A stretch of 64,000 nucleotides of DNA. Source: Luteimicrobium album (GTDB taxonomy: Bacteria; Actinomycetota; Actinomycetes; Actinomycetales; Cellulomonadaceae). Below the pieces are notes generated by a model. That model did no database searches. It was not told the origin of the DNA and saw nothing but the letters and a program-made list of their open reading frames with translations. This document shows, piece by piece, positions 1 through 36,166 of the stretch. The first letter of the stretch is position 1. The number at the start of each line of letters is the position of its first letter. The translations under genes and the position numbers were made by a program. The stretch spans positions 2,604,001 to 2,668,000 of the forward strand of contig NZ_BSUK01000001.1 of assembly GCF_030161555.1 (NCBI RefSeq), given 5' to 3'.

Positions 1-2145
1 CGGGGCGAGCGGTGGGATCGCGAGCCAGGAACGGGCGTTCCGCGCCGCCGTCGGGCGGGCCGCCGCGACGACCGCGGACGACCTGACGCCCCGCCGCCGC
101 CCCCACCCTGCCCCCGACCTGTCAGAAAGTGGTGTACGGATACGGGACGCGCGTTCTGACACGGCGGAGTTCGAGAACGCGGCTGACACCGACCCCGCCG
201 TCGCGGCGTCCCGCACCTGGGCCGCCGAGATCGTCGCGCGCGACCCGGCCGAGGCGGGCGCCCCGCGCGCCGTCCCCCTGACGACGACGGCGCAGGTCGA
301 TGAGGTCGTGGCCCGCGCCGCCCGGCTCGCGCCCGGCTGGGCGGGCACCGCGCCGTCCGAGCGGGGGCGCGTCCTCCGCGCCGCGGCCCGGCACCTCGAG
401 GCGGCGCGCGCCGACCTCGTCGCCGCGATGGTCCACGAGCCCGGCAAGACGGTCGCCGAGGCGGACCCGGAGGTCAGCGAGGCCGTCGACTTCGCCGCCT
501 GGTACGCCGGTTCGGCCGAGCGACTCGACCCGGCCCACCCCGACGCCGTCCCCGGCGCCGTGTTCGAGCCGCAGGGCGTCACGCTCGTCACCCCGCCCTG
601 GAACTTCCCCGTCTCCATCCCGGCGGGCGGCGTCCTCGCGGCGCTCGCGGCCGGTTCGCCCGTGATCGCGAAGCCCGCCCACCCGACGCCGCGGTGCTTC
701 GAGGTCGTCGTCGACGCCGCCCGGGCGGCGCTCGCGGAGTGCGGCGCCGAGCCCGACCTCGTCCAGCTCGTGCGCGTCGCGGACGGCGAGGGCGACGACA
801 CCCCGGCCGGCGGCTCGTCACGCACCCGGACGTGACGCGCGTCGTGCTGACGGGCTCGATCGAGACGGCCCGCCTGTTCGCGTCCTGGCGCCCGGAGCGC
901 GAGGTCCTTGCGGAGACGTCGGGCAAGAACGTGATCGTCGTGACGCCTGCGGCCGACCCGGACCTGGCGGTCGCCGACGTCGTGCGCTCGGCGTTCGGGC
1001 ACGCCGGGCAGAAGTGCTCGGCGGCGTCGCTCGTCATCCTCGTGGGTGCCGCGGGGGACCGCCGCACCCCGACCGGCGCGCGGCTGCGCCGTCAGCTCGT
1101 GGACGCGGTGGGCTCGCTCGCGGTCGGGCTGCCGACCGACCTGGGCACGGTCATGGGGCCCCTTACCGAACCGGCCGAGGGCAAGCTGCTGCGTGCGCTC
1201 ACGACCCTCGACCCCGGCGAGCGCTGGCTCGTGCGGCCCCGGTCCCTCGACGACGGTCGCCTGTGGACGCCAGGCCTCAAGGAGGGCGTGGCGCCGGGCT
1301 CGTGGTTCCACCGGACCGAGTGCTTCGGGCCGGTCCTGGGCGTCATGACGGCTGCGACGCTCGACGAGGCGATCGACCTGCAGAACGCCGTCGACTTCGG
1401 GCTGACCGCCGGCATCCACTCGCTCGACGAGGACGAGATCGACCGCTGGCTCGACCGCGTCGAGGCGGGCAACGTCTACGTGAACCGCCACATCACGGGC
1501 GCGATCGTCCGGCGCCAGCCGTTCGGTGGCTGGAAGGCGAGCGTCGTGGGGCCTGGGGCGAAGGCGGGCGGCCCGCACTACGTCGCGCAGCTCGGGGCGT
1601 GGCGGGACGCGCTCGCGCCCGACGGCGGCCCCGTGCCCCCGCGCGACGACGAGCCCGAGGCGTGGCTCGCGTGGGCGGAGGCGGACGACCGCCGTGCGTG
1701 GGACTCCGTCTTCTCGCGCGCCCACGACCCGTCCGGCCTGCGGGCCGAGGAGAACAGCCTGCGCTACCGCCCGGTCGACGTGCTGACGGTGCGCGTCGGC
1801 GAGGGCGCGCGCGGGGTGGAGATGCGGCGGGTGCTCCACGCGGCGCGGACCGCCGGCGTCCCCGCGGTCGTGAGCGCCGCGCCCGGCGTCGCCGTCCCGG
1901 GGGCGGGGACGCCCGAGACCGACGAGGCATTCGCGGCGCGGGTCGCGGCCGGCGAGGTGACGGGGCGGGTGCGTGTCGTCGGGCGGGCACCCGGTCTGCG
2001 CGAGGCCGCCGTTCGCCGGGCGGGACTCGTGACCGTGCTCGACCGCCCGGTGGTCGCGAGCGCCGAGCGCGAGCTCCTCGCCGTGCTGCGCGAGCAGGCC
2101 GTGAGCCGGACGCGGCATCGCTACGGGCACGTGCAGCCCCGCTGA
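1..2145 (+). CDS. putA: Bifunctional proline dehydrogenase / L-glutamate-gamma-semialdehyde dehydrogenase (PutA-type), C-terminal part
   Basis: This is the 3' part of a PutA-like enzyme that oxidises proline to glutamate; the proline dehydrogenase half lies outside the window. The visible part is the linker and the aldehyde dehydrogenase domain. The substrate-binding stretch VTPPWNFPVSIPAGG is followed by the catalytic Glu in LAETSGKN, the catalytic Cys in GHAGQKCSA and the C-terminal ECFGPVLG and RQPFGGWKAS motifs. The reading frame shifts near 801-804; one extra C in the CCCC run restores the reading DDTPGRRLVTHPDV, so a sequencing error is likely. The frame is open from base 2 through the palindromic element at 120-161, which adds about 14 residues between the two catalytic halves. 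The stop is at 2145. Family assignment is firm; single-chain PutA is inferred because the 5' end is missing. Confidence 0.85.
120..161 (+). repeat. 42-bp palindromic element, copy 1 (inside putA)
   Basis: The ends TGTCAGAA and TTCTGACA are inverted repeats and the core GGTGTACGGATACGGGAC resembles copies 6 and 7. This copy is single, with no partner 62 bp away on either side. Its length is 14 codons, so it does not disturb the putA frame; the encoded peptide is close to LSESGVRIRDARSD. It sits in the poorly conserved linker of the enzyme. Confidence 0.85.
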
Positions 2146-3454: not shown

Positions 3455-4284
3455 TCAGCGCCGGACGACGAGCAGGCGCGTCGCCATCCACGGCCCGGAC
3501 CACCACAGCCGCCACCCGAGCCCACGGTCCGTCTCGACGTGCGCCCCCGCTGCTGCCGCCACCGTCGCGTACTCCCGCACGCGGGAGATGTCGACGACGA
3601 CGAGCCGGCCCCCGGGCCGCAGGACGCGCAGGGCCTCCCGGACGGCGTCGGCGCGGCCCTGCGCCGTCGGGACGTTGTGGATCGCGAGGCCAGCGGTGAC
3701 CAGGTCGAACGTGTGGTCGTGGAACGGGAGCCGCGTCATGTCGGCGGTGTGCAGGGCGACCGCACCCGCGGGCCGGCCGGTGGGGTCGGAGTCGGGCGAC
3801 GCCTCGGGGACGCCGTTCGCGGCGAGGTTCCTGCGGGTCGCTGACGGGTCGTTGCCGGACTGGTCGACGGACCGCCACAGGTCGACGCCGTCGACGCCCC
3901 CGCGGGGCAGGCGCGACGCGAGGGCGACGGTGACCGCGCCTCGCCCGCAGCCCAGGTCGAGCGCGTGCTCGTCGCCCCGCAGGTCGAGGTCGTCGAGCAC
4001 CTCGGCCCACACCTCGTGCTTGCCGCGCCGGCTCGCGTGCACGTAGAGCCAGCCGCCCACCGTCCAGACGACGAAGCCGACCCAGGTGTACAGCAGCCAG
4101 ATCAGCAGCCCGACGCCGATCCCGTCGGAGGCCCGAGCAGCCACGACGACGGTGACGATCCCGCCCGCGAGGAAGAGGAGCGCGAGCCCGAACCAGAGGA
4201 CGGGGATCCAGGGTGCATCGATCCCGTAGTCGCCGACCGGACGCCTGACAAAGGGGTGCTCGTCGGGGGCGCAGCGTCAGCCAT
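3455..4284 (-). CDS. Membrane-anchored class I SAM-dependent methyltransferase
   Basis: The N-terminus has two hydrophobic segments (WIPVLWFGLALLFLAGGIV and VGLLIWLLYTWVGFVVWTVG) and is followed by a Rossmann methyltransferase domain with the SAM-binding motif ALDLGCGRGAVTVALA and the later LRPGGRLVVVDIS strand. The uninterrupted frame starts only at a GTG at 4144, which would lose the first membrane segment. An ATG at 4284 gives MADAAP and joins the same protein if one C is added to the CCCCC run near 4268, so I take 4284 as the real start. The methyl acceptor is unknown. The gene lies on the same strand as its neighbours but nothing ties it to a pathway. Confidence 0.75.
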
Positions 4285-13737: not shown

Positions 13738-16326
13738 CTACTCGACGGCGAGCGCCGCCACCGGCGACGTCCTGGCCGCGCTCCGCCCCGGCAGCGCGGA
13801 CGCAGCGAGCCCCGCGACGAGAGCGACCACGAGGACGACGCCGATCGTGGACCACGGCACCACGAGCGGCGTGGACCCGAACGAGCCGAGGGCCGCGGCG
13901 GCCCCCGCCCAGCCGTACGCCACACCGAGGACGATCCCGACGACGGCGCCGACGCCCGCGATGAGCATGCCTTCCTGCGCGAGCATCCACCGGAGCTGGC
14001 CGCGCGTGAGCCCGATCGCTCGGAGGGTCGCGGACTCGCGCCGCCGCTCCAGGACGGACAGGGACAGGGTGTTGGCGACCCCGACCAGCGCGATCACGAC
14101 GGCGACGGCGAGCAGGCCGAGGACGATCGCGAGGATCGTGTCGACGACCTTCTCCATGTCGGCGTGCTGGGCGGCGGGCCCCACGACGCTGATCGAGGAG
14201 TCCTGGTCGGCGACCGCGTCCTGGACGGCGGCGAGCGTGTCGGCCGCGTCGGCGTGGTCCGCGAAGGCGAGCCACGCGGTGTCGGGGGCGACGTGCGGCG
14301 CGACCCGCGCGAAGACCGCAGGCGTCACGTAGGCGCCGACGTCGCCGAGATCCACGACGCGCACCTGGAGCCGCACGGACGGGCCGGTCGGGTCGCCGTC
14401 GTCGTCCGCTGCACGCAGCGTCACGGTGTCGCCGTCCTCGAGCTTGGTCGACCCGAGGTCGCGCGATGCGGGGTTGACCGCGATCTCGCGGTCGTCCAGC
14501 CCGGCGAGCGCCTCCGGCGTGCGGAGCACCTCGCGGCCGGCGGCGGGCTCCACGCCCTCGAGCTCGATGCCCGACGACGTGCCTCCCGACGTGAGCGTCG
14601 CGTTGGCCCGGCTGACCGGGACGACCCGGCGCACGCCGTCGACGTCGGCGAGCGTCGACTGCAGGGCCGAGGTCATCTCGCCCGGCCCGTCGCCCGACCC
14701 GTACGACGTGACGATCGCGTCGACCGGGTAGTGCTCGTCGAGCGTGGAGCCGAGCGCGACGCGTGCGCTGGCCGCACCGGTGGCCATCATGGCGACGAGG
14801 GTGACGCCGATGAGCAGCGCGGTGCTGGTCGCCGTCGTGCGGCGGGGGTTGCGGAGCGTGTTGGCGGCCGCGAGCCGTGAGCTGGCGCCGGCCTTCCCGA
14901 GCGCGGTGCCCGCAGCGTGGACGACGCGCGGCATCCAGAACACCGACCCGACGAGGATGCCGACGAAGGAGACGGCACCGCCGAGGACGCCGAGCGCCAG
15001 CCCGATCTCGGGCGAGCCCTGGGTCCCGGCGAGGACGGCGACGGCGAGGAGCAGGAGCCCGCCGACGGTCGCGAGGAGCGCGAGCGTACCGCGGACGCGA
15101 CCGGCCCGGCTGGTCAGCGTCGGCGCCTCGGCCGGGCGCAGCGCCGCAAGGGGCGCGACACGTGTCGCGGTGCGTGCGGGCGCGAGGCTCGCGACGATCG
15201 TCACGACGGTCCCGACCACGAGCGGGACCACCACCGCGACGGGGGAGACGTCGATGGAGGACGGGAGCGGCGTCGTCGTGCGGCTCCTCAGCACGGTGAG
15301 GACGAGCTGTGCGAGGCCCGTCCCGAGCACCACGCCGACGGCCGACCCGACGAGCCCGAGGACGCCGGCCTCGAAGACGACCGACCGACCGAGCTGGCCC
15401 TTCGACGCGCCGACGCAGCGCAGGAGCGCGAGGGTGCGGGCGCGCTGCGCGACGAGCACCTGGAACGTGTTCGCGATGACGAGCGCCGCGACGACGAGCG
15501 CGATCGCCGCAAAGGTGAGGACCACGTAGGTGAAGACGTCGTCGTCGCCGGTCGCCTGGGCGGCCAGCTCGCGGGCCAGGGCGTCGCGCGTGAGGACGCG
15601 GGCGCCGTCGGGCAGGGACAGCGCGCTGAGCGCGTCGCTCGCCTGGGCCGTGGAGGCGTGGGCGTCGAGGGCGACCAGGACGGCGGGGTACGTGACGGTC
15701 GCACCCGGCCCGGCCTCGACGTCCTGCCAGTGCCGGAGCGTCGAGGCGGTCACGATCCCTGCGCCGCCCGACGCGGTCCAGGCGCCGTACGGGTCGTCGA
15801 GGGTCCCGACGACCCGCAGCCGGCGGCTCTCGGCGGGCGGCTGGGCTCCCTGGGAGTCGTACGCGCCCGTGACGGTCACGGTGACCGTGTCGCCGACCTC
15901 GACCCCGAGGCGCTCCGCCTGACCGACGGGCAGGGCGACCTCGTCGTCGGAGGCCGGGAACGCGCCGTCGTGCACGCGCTGGGGCTCGAGCCGGGTGTCG
16001 CTCGGGAGGCCCGTGAACGCGCTGTTGAGGGTCTTGCCGTGGGCGGCGACGTCCTCCCAGCTCATCGCGCGGGGTGCCGCGGCAGCGACGCCCGGGGTCG
16101 CCGCGACGTCCGCGACGTCCTTCGCCCCCAGCTGCTCGCCGTCGGCGGTCACCACGAGGTCGGCGCGCGCGTACGGGGCGGCGACCGAGTCGGTCGTGGC
16201 GGTGCGGATGAGGTCGGACGCGACGAGGGTCGCGGCGACGAAGCCCGTGCCGATCGCGATCGCGATGCCCGCGGCGGCGAGCCGTGCGACGCTGCGGCGC
16301 ATCTGCGCGAGCGTGAGCCGGATCAT
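13738..16326 (-). CDS. ABC transporter permease with two FtsX/MacB-like domains
   Basis: This 862-residue membrane protein has an N-terminal helix ([21 protein letters not shown]), a large extracytoplasmic domain and two FtsX-type four-helix units, near residues 260-410 and 730-860. Such duplicated permeases work with one MacB-like ATPase in lipoprotein, peptide or antibiotic efflux and sensing. Its ATG at 16326 overlaps the restored stop of the ATPase gene. It probably forms one functional unit with the two-component system at 18.7-20.8 kb, now separated by the DUF559 gene. Confidence 0.88.
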
Positions 16327-17148
16327 CGGGGGCCACCGTGGCGTCGTCGAGCGAGCGCAGGGCGTCGAGGCCGGCGAGCGCGGCCTCGGGCGTCGGGTCC
16401 TGGATGTCGCCCGCGACGCGGCCGTCGGCGAGCAGGACGACACGGTCCGCGTACGCGGCGGCCGAGGGTCGTGCGTGACCATGACGATCGTGCGGCCGAG
16501 CTCGCGCACCGAGCGGCGCAGGAAGCTCAGCACCTCCGCGCCGGAGCGCGAGTCGAGGTTGCCCGTCGGCTCGTCCGCGAACACCACCTCGGGCTTCGTG
16601 ATCAGGGCGCGCGCGATCGCGACGCGCTGCTGCTGGCCGCCCGAGAGCTCCGACGGGCGGTGCGTGAGGCGCTGCCCCAGCCCCAGCGTCTCGACGAGGA
16701 TCTCGAGCCACGCCCGGTCCACGGCGCCGTTCGCGAGCTCGACCGGGAGCGTGATGTTCTGCTCCGCCGTGAACATGGGCAGCAGGTTGAACGACTGGAA
16801 CACGAAGCCCACCCGCTCGCGGCGCAGCAGCGTGAGCTCCTTGTCGGTGAGGTGCGTGACCTCCGTGCCGCCCAGGTACGCGCTGCCGCTCGTCGCAGAG
16901 TCGAGGCCCGCGAGCAGGTGCATGAGCGTCGACTTGCCCGAGCCCGACGGCCCCATGATCGCCGTGAACGCGCCGGCCTCGAAGTCCACGTCGACGGCGT
17001 CGAGCGCGCGCACCGCCGCCTCGCCGCGGCCGTACGTCTTGGTCAGGGCGCGGGCCCGGACCGCGACCGGGCTCGCGGGAGGCTGCAGCACGGACGCCGC
17101 GGGCGGGGCGGACGTCGTCGTCGGGGCGGGCTGGTCGGACGGGGCCAC
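16323..17148 (-). CDS. ABC transporter ATP-binding protein (MacB/LolD-like)
   Basis: The ATPase carries Walker A (GPSGSGKST), the Q-loop [10 protein letters not shown], the signature [15 protein letters not shown], Walker [14 protein letters not shown] and the H-loop MVTHDP. GTG 17148 is preceded by GAAGGAG. Two single-base losses disturb the 3' end: one near 16468 (restoring [19 protein letters not shown]) and one in the CCCCC run near 16329, after which the protein stops at a TGA overlapping the permease ATG. A Pro/Ala-rich N-terminal tail of about 30 residues precedes the domain. It supplies energy for the downstream permease. Confidence 0.88.
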
Positions 17149-17313: not shown

Positions 17314-17355
17314 TGTCAGAACGTGCTTCACGTATACGGGTGCCAGGTTCTGACA
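17314..17355 (+). repeat. 42-bp palindromic element, copy 2
   Basis: The ends are TGTCAGAACGTG and GGTTCTGACA; the core is CACGTATACGGGTG. It is the left half of a dimer, with 20 bp to copy 3. Confidence 0.9.
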
Positions 17356-17375
17356 CGTCCGTCGCGCACCCGGGT

Positions 17376-17417
17376 TGTCAGAACGAGAGTCCCGTATACG
17401 GGCGCTCGGGTCTGACG
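17376..17417 (+). repeat. 42-bp palindromic element, copy 3
   Basis: The ends are TGTCAGAACGAG and GGGTCTGACG, and the core is the perfect palindrome CCCGTATACGGG. The right arm carries the variant GTCTGACG also seen in copy 7, the right half of another dimer. Confidence 0.88.
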
Positions 17418-17618
17418 GCCCGACGACGGAGCCCGGTCCGGGCGGTGACCTCACCTCGGATCGGGGTGGGGTCGGGTCCCGGTGGTGGCCGCCACCGGGG
17501 CGCACGCGAGTCGTCCCACGGGGCGGAGGCTGCGCACAAGCGAGCGTTGCGGGTGGTCGTCCACAGGCCACGACACCCCACCCCCGAGCGACCGCCCGAC
17601 CCACCACCCTTGGGATCC

Positions 17619-18606
17619 ATGACCGGTCGGCCCGACGTCCTCGACGTCGTCCCCGGGCTGCGCGAGCTCGCGGCCCGTCAGCACGGCGTGTGCTCCCGCC
17701 GTCAGCTCGCGGCCCTCGGCGTCACGGCTCGCCACGTCGACTATCAGGTGGCGGCCCGGCGCTGGCGGCTCGTCGCGCCTGAGATCCTCGTCCTGCACTG
17801 CGGACCGCTGATCCGTGAGGCGCGGTACTGGGCCGCGGTGCTCGGGGCGGAGACCGTCCCGGTGGCGCTCGCGTGCTGGACGGCGCTCGAGCTGCACGGG
17901 CTTCGCGGCTGGCATCGCGAGCCGGTGCACGTCGTCGTCCCGCGAGGCGACAAACCGGCTCGGTTCCCGTGGCTCGTCGTGCACGAGTCCCGCCGGCACG
18001 ATGCGGGAGACGTGACGGTCAGTGCCGGGCTCCCCGCGCACGGGATCGAGCGGGCCGCGATCGACGCGGCGGCGTGGCAGCGGTCGTGGCGCACCGCCTC
18101 GGGGCTGATGGCGGCGGTGGTCCAGCAGCGGCTCACGACGCCCGACGCTCTGCTGGGCGAGCTCGAGCGCGCAGGGCCGGATCCGGCACCGGCGGACGAT
18201 GCAGCTCGCGCTGCTCGACGTGATCGGTGGCGCGCAGTCGCTCGAGGAGATCGACTTCGCCCGGCTGTGCCGGCGCGCCGGGCTGCCGGAGCCGTCGCGG
18301 CAGGAACGTCGTCGGGACGCCCGCGGCAAGGTGCGTTTCCTCGACGTGGAGTGGCGGCTGCGGGGAGGTGGACGGCTGGTCGTGGAGGTGGACGGCGTCG
18401 GGCACATGGAGCGCGAGCAGTGGTACGACGACCTGCTGCGCGACGCCGAGCTCGGGTCGGACAGCCGCACGGTGCGGATCCGCATCCCCGCGGGGGCGGC
18501 ACGGCACGAGCCGGAGCGCGTGCTCGCGATCGTCCGGGGCCACCTCGCCGCCCTCGACCGCCGACCTGTCAGAACGTGGGACCCGTATACGGGAAGCTCG
18601 TTCTGA
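17619..18606 (+). CDS. DUF559-domain protein with AbiEi-like N-terminal winged helix
   Basis: The protein, about 329 residues, has an N-terminal AbiEi-antitoxin-like winged helix (RQHGVCSRRQLAALGVTARH) and a C-terminal DUF559 domain of the Vsr/PD-(D/E)XK nuclease fold. The candidate active-site strand is RLVVEVDGVGHMEREQW, followed by the conserved D..LRDAEL. A frameshift near 18172 separates the halves; the restored join reads QGRIRHRRTMQLALLD. ATG 17619 is the best start. Such genes are abundant and of unknown role in actinobacteria. The last codons and the TGA stop lie inside palindromic element 4. The gene runs opposite to both neighbours and splits a two-component system from its likely ABC exporter. 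Confidence 0.75.
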
Positions 18607-18608
18607 CA
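18567..18608 (+). repeat. 42-bp palindromic element, copy 4
   Basis: This is the most symmetric copy: TGTCAGAACG and CGTTCTGACA are 10-bp inverted arms around the palindromic core CCCGTATACGGG, with 5-base spacers on each side. It overlaps the end of the DUF559 gene and supplies its stop codon. Confidence 0.92.
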
Positions 18609-18628
18609 CGAGGGTGGCGATGCTGACC

Positions 18629-18670
18629 TGTCAGAACATGAAGGCCCCCGACGTGCCTCACGTTCTGACA
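18629..18670 (+). repeat. 42-bp palindromic element, copy 5
   Basis: The arms TGTCAGAAC and GTTCTGACA are intact, but the centre has diverged (GGCCCCCGACGTGCC). It stands 20 bp after copy 4 and 15 bp before the stop codon of the response regulator on the other strand. Confidence 0.88.
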
Positions 18671-18685
18671 GGTCCAGGGACAGGG

Positions 18686-19428
18686 TCAGTCCGGGGAGCC
18701 CGGGCGCACCAGACCCGCCTCGTACGCCGTGACGACGGCCTGCACGCGGTCGCGCGCGCCCAGCTTCGCGAGGATCCGCCCGACGTGCGTCTTCACGGTC
18801 GCCTCGGCCACGAACAGCTCGGCGGCGATCTCCAGGTTCGACCGGCCGCGCGCCATGAGGACCAGCACCTCGCGCTCGCGGTCGGTGAGCTGGTCGAGGG
18901 CGTGCTGCGCGTCGGGGTCGACGGCGGCGTCGGCGGGCAGGGCGGTCACGAGGTGCTCGAGAAGCCGGCGCGTCGACGACGGCGCGATGACCGCATCCCC
19001 GGCATGGACGGTCCGGATCGCGGCGAGCATCTCCTCCGGGGTGCGTCCTTGAGGAGGAACCCGCTCGCGCCCGCCCGGATCGCCTCGAGCACGTACTCGT
19101 CGAGGTCGAACGTGGTGAGCACGATGACCCGCGGGACCGCGGCACCCGTCTCGGCGGCGCCGGCCGTGAGCTGCGCGGTGGCGCTGAGACCGTCGAGGGT
19201 GGGCATGCGGACGTCCATGAGGACGACGTCGACGGGGTGCGACGCGAGGAGCCGCAGCGCCTGCGCACCGTCCCCGGCCTCGACGACGACCTCCAGGTCG
19301 GGCTGCGAGTCGATGACCATGCGGAACCCGGCACGGACGAGCTGCTGGTCGTCGACGAGCGCCACCCGCACGGGCGCACCGCTTCCCGCGCCCGCACCCT
19401 CGGTCGGACCGTTCCCCTGAGCGCTCAC
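18686..19428 (-). CDS. NarL/LuxR-family response regulator
   Basis: An N-terminal receiver domain (VALVDDQQLVRAGFRM, phosphoacceptor Asp in VLMDVRMPTLDG, FLLKDAP) is followed by a LuxR helix-turn-helix (LTDREREVLVLMARGRSNLE). A frameshift near 19043 is bridged by one C as KDAPPEEMLAAIRTV. The start GTG overlaps the stop of the histidine kinase gene (GTGA at 19425-19428), so the two are translationally coupled. The likely target is the ABC exporter encoded further along the same strand. Confidence 0.9.
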
Positions 19429-20773
19429 GTGCCGGACTCTACCGGGGTGCCGCCGTCGGGCTCGGGGACGGCGAAGCCGCCGTCAGGCAGCCGGGACGGG
19501 AGCTCGAGGTGCACGCGGTAGCCGCCGCCCGGGCGCGGCCCGGTGGCCACGGTCCCCCGAAGACGGCGGCCCGCTCGCGCATCCCGAGCAGCCCGTACCC
19601 ACCGCCGTCGCTCGCGGCTGCCGCCCCGCGGCCGTCGTCCTGGACGTCGAGCACGACGGCGTCCGCGTCCCACCGCAGGACCACGGTCACGTTCGGCGAC
19701 GGGCCGGCGTGCTTGAGGACGTTGGTGAGCGCCTCCTGGGCGACGCGGAAGATCGTGAGTGCCGCACCCGGCGGGAGCTGTCGCGGCGTGCCGACCCGGA
19801 CGAGCGACACGCGGGGCCCGCCGGCACGTACCTGCTCGACGAGCGCCTCGAGCCCCTCGACCGACGGTTGCGGCGCGAGCGCGGTGGGTGCGCTCGGTAC
19901 GGCGGGTGCGTCTGCGGGCCGAGGGGCGCGCCCTGCTCCGCGGCCACCTGCGGCTTCCCCGCCCCCGACGACGACGCCGCCGGGCGCCGGCGGGCCGTCC
20001 GTGTCGGCGCGCAGCACGCCGAGGATGCGCCGCATGTCGGCGAGGGCGGCGCGGCCGGTCTCGGCGATCGTCGTGAGCGACCGCTCGGGGGCGGTGGGGT
20101 CGGTGGCGGCCGCGTACCGGCCGCCGTCGGCCTGCGCGATCATCACGGACAGCGAGTGCGCGACGATGTCGTGGAGCTCGCGTGCGATCCGGGTCCGCTC
20201 GGCGGAGGTCGCGAGCCGGGTCTGCTGGTCGCGCTCGACCTCGAGCCGCTCGGCGCGGTCGCGCAGGGCCTCGAGGGTCTCGCGGCGCGACCGCCGGACG
20301 AGGCCGAACGCCCACACGGCCAGGAGGACGACGCCGCCGAAGACCGCGAGCACCACGGCCTGGCGCGCGGCGGCGGTGGCTCCGAGGCCGCGGTCCGCCA
20401 TGAGCGCGGAGGCGACGAGGACGCCGAGGAGCCCCGTGCCGATGGCCGTCCGGTGCGCCCAGCGGGGCCCGACGACGGTGACGGAGTACAGCGCCACGGG
20501 CACCGCGACGACCGAGGCGACCGACGCGCTCTGGTCGACCATGAGCTGGACCAGGGCCAGCGCGTAGACGGTGGCGACCGAGGCGGCCGGCCGGGTCCGC
20601 CGCCACGCGAGCGCGACGCACAGCGCGAGCGCGAACCAGACCCCGCCGTGCGTGGACATGCCCTCGGCGGCGCTCGCCGCGACGAGGAACAACGCGAGGG
20701 CGGCCGCACCGGTCGCGTCGACGCCGAACCGGTGCTGCTCGGTCCAGCGCGTGGCGTTCTCGTACCAGCCCAT
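19425..20773 (-). CDS. NarL-type sensor histidine kinase (DesK-like)
   Basis: Several N-terminal membrane segments (for example AALALFLVAASAAEG, VASVVAVPVALYSVTVV, VVLAVFGGVVLLAVWAF) are followed by a HisKA_3 domain with the phosphoacceptor His in RTRIARELHDIVAHSLSVM and an HATPase domain (FRVAQEALTNVLKHA, GYGLLGMRERA). A Gly/Ala/Pro-rich insert of about 40 residues sits between them. A frameshift near 19557 is repaired by one G, giving VFGGTVATGPRPGGGYRV. ATG 20773 is chosen because MGWYENATRW leads directly to the first helix. Confidence 0.88.
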
Positions 20774-20945
20774 CGCCTCAGCGTAGGATCGGCGAGGCGG
20801 ACGGCGCGTCCGCCCGGGGGCGACCCGTCGGCGTGCCACGTGCTCCTGCGGGTGTACGGGACGTCAGGTCGCGGCCCCGGGACGGTACGGACGAGTTCCC
20901 GCGAAACGGGAGACTCCGGTCCGGGGGATGCTCTAGCATGGCCTA

Positions 20946-36062: not shown

Positions 36063-36104
36063 TGTCAGAACGTGGTGCACGGATACAGGGACCTGGTTCT
36101 GACA
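36063..36104 (+). repeat. 42-bp palindromic element, copy 6
   Basis: The ends are TGTCAGAACGTG and GGTTCTGACA and the core is CACGGATACAGG. It is the left half of a dimer between two convergent genes. Confidence 0.9.
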
Positions 36105-36124
36105 CGAACAGGGCGGCGGGCGGT

Positions 36125-36166
36125 TGTCAGAACGTGGTGCACGGATACGGGACCCTCGGTCTGACG
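36125..36166 (+). repeat. 42-bp palindromic element, copy 7
   Basis: The ends are TGTCAGAACGTG and CGGTCTGACG and the core is CACGGATACGGG. It follows copy 6 after 20 bp and stands 9 bp before the stop codon of the metallopeptidase-like gene. Confidence 0.9.

Follow-up and report, generated by a model that had tools for sequence, protein, structure and literature searches.

A gene of Luteimicrobium album whose predicted product fuses an AbiEi-type DNA-binding region (approximately residues 12-190) to a Vsr-like (DUF559) nuclease domain lies between pairs of short palindromes, further copies of which are scattered over the same genome, and alignment and pattern searches across related genomes show that groups of such genes pair with palindrome families. 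Gene and palindromes together suggest a selfish DNA system of a kind not yet described, similar to the known REP palindromes. The window, that is, the whole stretch of DNA that was analysed, covers 64,000 bp (positions 2604001-2668000) of the 4.18-Mb genome (G000), which consists of a single contig, and has a G+C content of 73.7% (Table 1).

Table 1. Features of the analysed window, with positions counted from its first base
Feature	Position	Strand	Remarks
FtsX-type permease, same module	13741..16326	-	domain match
ABC transporter ATPase (part used as query)	16459..17148	-	left neighbour of insertion
42-bp palindromic element, upstream pair copy 1	17314..17355	.	exact arms; 58.1 bits
42-bp element, upstream pair copy 2	17376..17417	.	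two arm mismatches; 62 bp from copy 1; 27.9 bits
AbiEi-DUF559 (Vsr-like) gene	17619..18606	+	two frames: first part from 17619, second from ~18175
42-bp palindromic element, downstream pair copy 1	18567..18608	.	exact arms; 60.9 bits
42-bp element, downstream pair copy 2	18629..18670	.	exact arms, centre poorly symmetric; 46.5 bits
Response regulator (receiver + LuxR-type domains)	18686..19428	-	frame-split; right neighbour of insertion
Histidine kinase (HisKA_3, HATPase_c)	19439..20776	-	domain matches
Dispersed single element copy	120..161	.	pattern matches
Dispersed element pair 36063-36104 + 36125-36166	36063..36166	.	single GGC-type copy at same place in G002

Location of the gene in a two-component/ABC transporter module

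An earlier note on this DNA had described the gene as bracketed by two element dimers, and pattern searches bore this out (17314-17417 and 18567-18670); domain matches likewise agreed with its description of regulator, kinase, ATPase and permease as all lying on the minus strand around a plus-strand gene. Its statement that the dimers have the same orientation is meaningless, since the elements are palindromes. The upstream pair sits between the divergent starts of the AbiEi-DUF559 gene and the ATPase gene, and the stop codon of the AbiEi-DUF559 gene (TGA, 18604-18606) falls in the right arm of the first downstream element.

The same junction was compared at 30 ATPase loci, where the DUF559 gene was present in two, those of L. 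album and its sister species (G002). At 20 of the 30 loci the regulator and ATPase genes are adjacent and on the same strand with no DUF559 match between them, which is the module order that the earlier note had expected in relatives; the gap is 41-270 bp in 18 of these and 683 bp (G005) and 823 bp (G022) in the others. The regulator is absent from the locus in the remaining eight. Because 20 relatives have the regulator-ATPase junction without the gene, the gene looks inserted there, to judge by gene order. Two genomes outside the 30-locus sample, G033 and G035, carry the gene at this junction as well, and no case of the gene being kept here without the elements was found, L. album, G002, G033 and G035 all carrying them. 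In G007 the junction is free of the gene, the ortholog being on another contig, and no module match was found in the fetched flanks of the orthologs of G005, G024 and G029; four of the eight close orthologs described below are without a nearby module.

The proposal of a 1.36-kb inserted cassette thus stands as far as the gene is missing at the junction in 20 relatives, but not as far as spacing is concerned, which alone is no mark of a cassette: a spacing of 1.2-1.45 kb was considered as such a sign and rejected, other L. album element pairs so spaced enclosing other open reading frames (identified by eye). No AbiEii nucleotidyltransferase toxin gene lies beside the gene at this locus, its neighbours being the response regulator and the ABC ATPase.

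Domain architecture of the predicted protein

The window protein matched AbiEi_4 (E=8e-4) and DUF559 (E=0.03) in Pfam, both more weakly than the curated cut-offs, and its family identity rests on the matches of its relatives. The G002 ortholog has 316 aa in one frame, and AbiEi models cover its residues 14-192. The PADLOC AbiEi model PDLC02228 matched all 23 aligned family members (set A2); Pfam at E 0.01 identified AbiEi_4 in 13, DUF559 in 4 and MTES_1575 in 4 of them, no Y1 (HUH tyrosine) transposase, and only AbiEi, DUF559 and MTES families. NCBIfam had no useful family for the protein. The family profile matched 3hrl (NGO0050) with E=2e-5 over profile positions 201-304, which form the nuclease region, and 6y8q, an 'abortive phage infection protein' (the streptococcal AbiEi), with E=0.01 over positions 12-119. 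Residues E210 and D242 are invariant across the 23 members, and the family has the acidic active-site residues, family profile and predicted fold of Vsr-like PD-(D/E)XK nucleases.

The structure model used was that of the Frankiaceae relative of L050 (mean pLDDT 61.6, residues 62-143 below 50), and the L050 prediction is fair mainly in the nuclease part. The best match of the predicted nuclease fold was I-Bth0305I (Z 11.1, rmsd 2.7, 93 aligned), a member of the Vsr-related EDxHD group, followed by 3hrl (Z 10.1, rmsd 3.3, 90 aligned), on a scale on which unrelated ribosomal proteins score up to Z 9.0 in the same comparison. Foldseek with the predicted structure found nothing at or below E 0.001.

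The window gene is split where its frame changes, close to codon 187. Since the G002 protein is in one frame and the window's response regulator gene is split by a frame change too, an assembly error and decay both fit and cannot be told apart. The frame changes in both genes, together with a genome completeness given as 81.6% despite the one contig, suggest that the assembly contains many small indels.

No extra copy of the gene was found by tblastn of the window protein against 27 other L. album regions (26 with elements and one with a second DUF559 gene). Viral contigs gave 55 pattern matches and no relatives; phage records gave one partial match (56% of the query, 40% identity, E=4e-16) and plasmid records gave one match (27% identity, E=2e-6).

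Palindromic elements dispersed in the L. album genome

The near-palindromic element is 42 bp from end to end. The pattern TGTCAGAAC-N{20,40}-GTTCTGACA matched 33 places in the 4.18-Mb genome, all of them 42 bp long when 38-58 bp was permitted, and the reversed control pattern matched none; with a 24-base spacer and up to three mismatches there were 49 copies and again none for the control. A covariance model of the element gave 96 matches over the two strands at E 0.1. The search pattern itself fixes the outer 9 bp of each arm. The inner arms are variable yet symmetric, with 82.5% of cells pairing versus 24-41% when the partner was slid by 1-3 columns. Neighbouring elements form 12 pairs spaced 61-63 bp. 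The 49 elements have 98 flanks; counted outwards from the 42-bp palindrome, 75 of these have G as their fourth base and 74 have T or C as their first, so that the conserved unit may extend to approximately 50 bp, like the f38 palindromes described below.

Longer arrays and wider occurrences of related elements were also noted. Five consecutive elements of the TGTCAG type with a 62-bp period lie at G007:C12:169624-169913. The AAC-type 42-bp element (L044-L152) occurs, among the matches listed, in Oerskovia, Actinotalea, Microlunatus speluncae, Puerhibacterium and several actinobacterial MAGs; three such elements with 104-bp spacing are among the matches listed for M. speluncae (L102).

The symmetry, well above that of the slid controls, and a rough survey based on open reading frames, in which 15 of 37 element places start at most 50 bp from, or overlap, the end of an open reading frame, could both be accounted for if the palindromes were intergenic hairpins such as transcription terminators, with the gene beside them either fortuitously or through a tolerance of such places for insertions. 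We consider this highly improbable: nothing within the window matched Rfam at gathering thresholds, the gene and the ATPase gene start on either side of one element pair and read away from it, and terminators would be neither confined to gene-bearing genomes nor enriched in the flanks of one gene family.

Association of the elements with close orthologs and with the family class-wide

Close orthologs, defined by at least 50% identity over the N-terminal part, were found in 8 of 59 relatives, L. album included, and TGTCAG-N30-CTGACA elements of 42 bp lie on both sides of the gene in all eight, in agreement with the expectation that DUF559 genes lie beside elements. Seven of these flank calls passed the dyad filter (0.6 or more); G002 was missed by it and was added by reading its flanks, which hold 42-bp TGTCAGGC elements. 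Element pairs on both sides are plain in L. album, G005, G007, G024 and G029. The inner element sequence varies between genera, and between L. album and G002.

The whole-genome counts of the same pattern follow the presence of the gene. The eight genomes with an ortholog have 42 (L. album), 20 (G002), 30 (G005), 87 (G007), 12 (G024), 22 (G029), 23 (G033) and 104 (G035) copies, and the 51 without one have 23 (G032), 13 (G009), 9 (G004), 2 each (G019 and G028), one (five genomes) and none (41 genomes). Thus 12-104 copies are present in all eight ortholog genomes and at least 9 in three of the 51 others (Fisher p 7e-8, with kinship not removed). The flanking and dispersed copies are of the same type in the five genomes with listed places (L. 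album, G002, G007, G024 and G033); for G005, G029 and G035 the dispersed copies were counted only. The TGTCAG palindromes of G004, G009 and G032, in which no close ortholog was detected, may be either remnants after gene loss or partners of a diverged gene. A gene with 46% identity over the N-terminal part in a Frankiaceae MAG (L050, apparently identical with contig G204:C99) is likewise flanked by elements, one to either side.

A profile of the 23 members matched 248 of 296 genomes sampled across the class (E 1e-15), with about seven candidates scored per genome. From the listed matches 80 were taken, leaning to the strongest profile matches, and three were dropped for short flanks, leaving 77 genes. 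The longest word common to the two 500-bp flanks was at least 16 nt in 41 of the 77 genes versus 26 of 1506 mismatched pairs; among gene-sized control places it reached this length in 10 of the 399 taken from 400 kb of G002, in 3 of the 712 from L044-L152 and in none of the 63 from the window. Strong palindromes were present in both flanks of 31 of the 77 genes versus 0 of 77 after shuffling, which preserved base composition only, and 0 of 199 control places. The wider association of DUF559 genes with elements that had been proposed therefore holds for all eight close orthologs, but not throughout the more distant members, 36 of 77 of which fall below the 16-nt threshold for a shared flank.

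In the 59-genome set, the flanks of the distant members L164, L168, L170, L179, L180 and L182 share words of 19-52 nt. The AbiEi-DUF559 relatives L165, L181 and L182 (G058) are without the ExD nuclease motif; despite this loss the flanks of L165 and L182 still share 33 nt and 52 nt, respectively.

Other gene groups and their palindrome families

A second 42-bp family, CGTCCGCACTC-N20-GAGTGCGGACG, has 26 copies in G007, 23 copies in G021 and none in the other 57 genomes; among the matches listed all are 42 bp except one of 47 bp, when 28-58 bp was permitted. The second gene of G007 (L174) and a gene of G021 (L161), which are 63% identical, are both flanked by CGTCCGCACTC palindromes. In a third group, family f38, the palindromes beside the genes are of a TGATCA type and 49-50 bp long (46-52 bp permitted). 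The pattern TGATCATC-N{6,36}-GATGATCA was present in 20 of 22 f38 genomes, in up to 91 copies, and in 0-2 copies in 14 others searched; the f38 genomes G295 and G303 have the genes and no copy of this palindrome.

One genome can hold several such pairings. In G208 each of four paralogs adjoins a palindrome with an inner sequence of its own. Two of them have it on both sides: AACCTT beside C3:2881987-2882928, with six more copies elsewhere, and AACCGT beside C4:2108104-2109027. The other two have the palindrome on one side, namely AATGATCC at C4:473920-474849, with one more copy, and AAGGATC at C3:116829-117773. Across the 22 of 50 loci that had both a usable TGATCA palindrome and an open frame, half-site similarity tracks similarity of the AbiEi part (rho 0.32, a value reached in 2 of 2000 permutations) and, a little less, that of the nuclease part (rho 0.23, reached in 39 of 2000), shared ancestry not having been removed.

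The second DUF559 gene of L. album (L043:1954-3360, approximately 2725453-2726859 of G000:C1) is bordered on each side by an inverted-repeat pair of another kind, formed by GTAGCCGCACCAGCCACC and its inverse and approximately 127 bp end to end. This arm pair recurs in L027 at 3920-4036, and a single arm occurs in L031.

These distributions bear on the possibility that a Vsr-type homing endonuclease lands at element pairs, the palindromes being unrelated host repeats that serve as its target and the gene alone being mobile. The likeness of the nuclease part to the homing endonuclease I-Bth0305I, the position of the gene between elements, and the occurrence of orthologs both with and without the adjoining module agree with this idea, which we nevertheless regard as quite improbable, as genomes that lack the gene seldom contain the palindrome families, which is unexpected for host repeats, the gene subclades pair with palindrome families, and full element pairs rather than half-sites are present on both sides.

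Comparison of element sites with the sister species

The L. album genome has 37 element places, 16 of which have a clear orthologous interval in the compared part of G002 and 21 of which do not. G002 has an element, intact or degenerate, at 15 of the 16 intervals (14 by pattern and one by eye). At eight of the 16 the arms are of the GGC type in G002 where they are of the AAC type in L. album, and pairs and singles interchange at four. Site 3019429 has a perfect GGC-type element in G002 and a degenerate GGC-type element in L. album. At site 2441082 the pair is missing in G002, and since a short GTCAG-CGG-CTGAC stretch remains there, a deletion in G002 and an insertion in L. album both fit and cannot be told apart. 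No clean insertion with defined ends was seen among the 16 resolved sites.

As 15 of the 16 sites are occupied in both species and eight have the other arm type, the element places are old and their arms rewritten together, and conversion looks commoner than jumping. The gene itself differs between the two species more in its AbiEi half (74% identical, dS 0.67) than in its nuclease half (92%, dS 0.26), with dS of 0.12 in part of the neighbouring ATPase gene and 0.19 in part of the regulator gene. For G005 and G029, whose genes both lie beside TGTCAGTAC elements, dS is 0.51 in the AbiEi half and 0.48 in the nuclease half. The contrast, drawn from a single genome pair of each kind, is consistent with the DNA-binding half having been replaced when the palindrome type changed.

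The wholesale switch of element types at the same sites also weighs against regarding the palindromes as operators through which the AbiEi-nuclease represses itself and perhaps other genes, with the dispersed copies as its regulon, the flanking pairs as autoregulatory sites and no copying of elements. The promoters of AbiEi-type antitoxins are reported to contain paired inverted repeats that the antitoxins themselves bind (PMC7319586), the element is close in length to such an operator, a pair precedes the gene, and AbiEi models match all 23 members scanned. Elements are found behind the gene too, one of them containing its stop codon, and the rough survey mentioned above places 15 of 37 within 50 bp of, or overlapping, open reading frame ends; furthermore, it is not evident what a fused nuclease domain would do in plain repression. 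An operator function of this kind therefore appears unlikely.

Proposed mechanism

We lean, with modest confidence, towards a two-part selfish system comparable to the REP/RAYT 'REPtron' with a different enzyme, in which AbiEi binds, the nuclease cuts and repair copies. Two AbiEi-type N-terminal regions would bind the inverted half-sites of one palindrome, and the C-terminal Vsr-like nuclease would nick or cut at the element or at its cruciform. Repair from another copy would restore or spread the palindrome; it would keep the copies of a genome alike and doubled at fixed spacing and would occasionally reach new intergenic places. Each protein lineage would serve its own palindrome family, and a replacement of the DNA-binding half would bring with it a change in the genome's palindrome type. 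Binding, cutting, copying by repair and the setting of palindrome type by the DNA-binding half are steps that we infer. The AbiEi studied in one report binds two 23-bp inverted repeats lying 3 bp apart, 49 bp in all (PMC7319586), and the elements are near this length, at 42 bp (perhaps 50 bp with their edges) or 49-50 bp. The suggestion of the earlier note that the protein moves or maintains the elements would be compatible with such a system, and the comparison with the sister species speaks more for rewriting at existing sites than for frequent movement.

A more far-reaching version, which we offer tentatively and judge to have slightly less than an even chance, is that a large class of palindromic repeats in actinobacteria has AbiEi-Vsr fusions as its dedicated enzymes, which would be a second solution, unrelated to RAYTs, to the task that these perform for REPs. 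One protein would then correspond to one palindrome, read as an AbiEi half-site pair, and a swapped binding half would rewrite the palindromes in place by cut-and-repair conversion, in a bacterial analogue of PRDM9-like target turnover.

Relation to known systems and significance

REPtrons, as described in one account, consist of a RAYT (TnpA-REP) gene flanked by short REP palindromes that are dispersed in the same genome as singles, pairs and arrays, with more than one gene-palindrome pair per genome (PMC3733652). The system described here likewise has a chromosomal gene for an enzyme of a DNA-cutting type, flanked by palindromes that are dispersed in its own genome as singles, pairs and arrays, and more than one such pair occurs in one genome. 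It differs in having an AbiEi region and a Vsr-like nuclease instead of a Y1/HUH transposase in the 23 members scanned, and in having symmetric elements of 42 or 49-50 bp with edges without GTAG or CGTC tags: in the ten-base flanks of the 49 L. album elements, GTAG occurs in 0 of 98 versus 1.0 expected from random ten-base stretches, and CGTC in 8 versus 11.6. Lacking both the Y1 transposase and the GTAG/CGTC tags, the system is kept apart from REPtrons. With enzyme, element anatomy and tag all different and the logic alone shared, we consider it new in kind; classified by logic alone, it would be a REPtron variant.

AbiE type IV systems share with it the AbiEi region, present in all 23 members, and a comparable 49-bp paired inverted-repeat site in the AbiE system studied (PMC7319586). 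Unlike in those systems, AbiEi is here fused to a nuclease, there is no toxin gene at this locus, and the sites are genome-wide and on both sides of the gene. The nuclease region, with its E and D invariant in 23 members, resembles by profile and predicted fold the Vsr-like/DUF559/MTES_1575 proteins, NGO0050 (3hrl) and I-Bth0305I; unlike those nucleases, the family has an AbiEi region attached and is associated with palindrome families. One DUF559 protein, VsrA of Caulobacter, has been tied in one report to cytosine methylation (PMC12907096). A search of titles and abstracts, which had bioRxiv and most subscription journals outside its scope, found no link between DUF559 or Vsr-like proteins and dispersed palindromes.

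In Pfam the nuclease part is labelled either as being of unknown function or as restriction-enzyme-like, and the pairing supplies the genes of this family with a testable partner. It would also account for families of intergenic palindromes, and it offers many natural gene-palindrome pairs from which the reading of DNA by AbiEi may be learned. Should the copying prove real, systems that spread palindromes have arisen at least twice, with unrelated enzymes.
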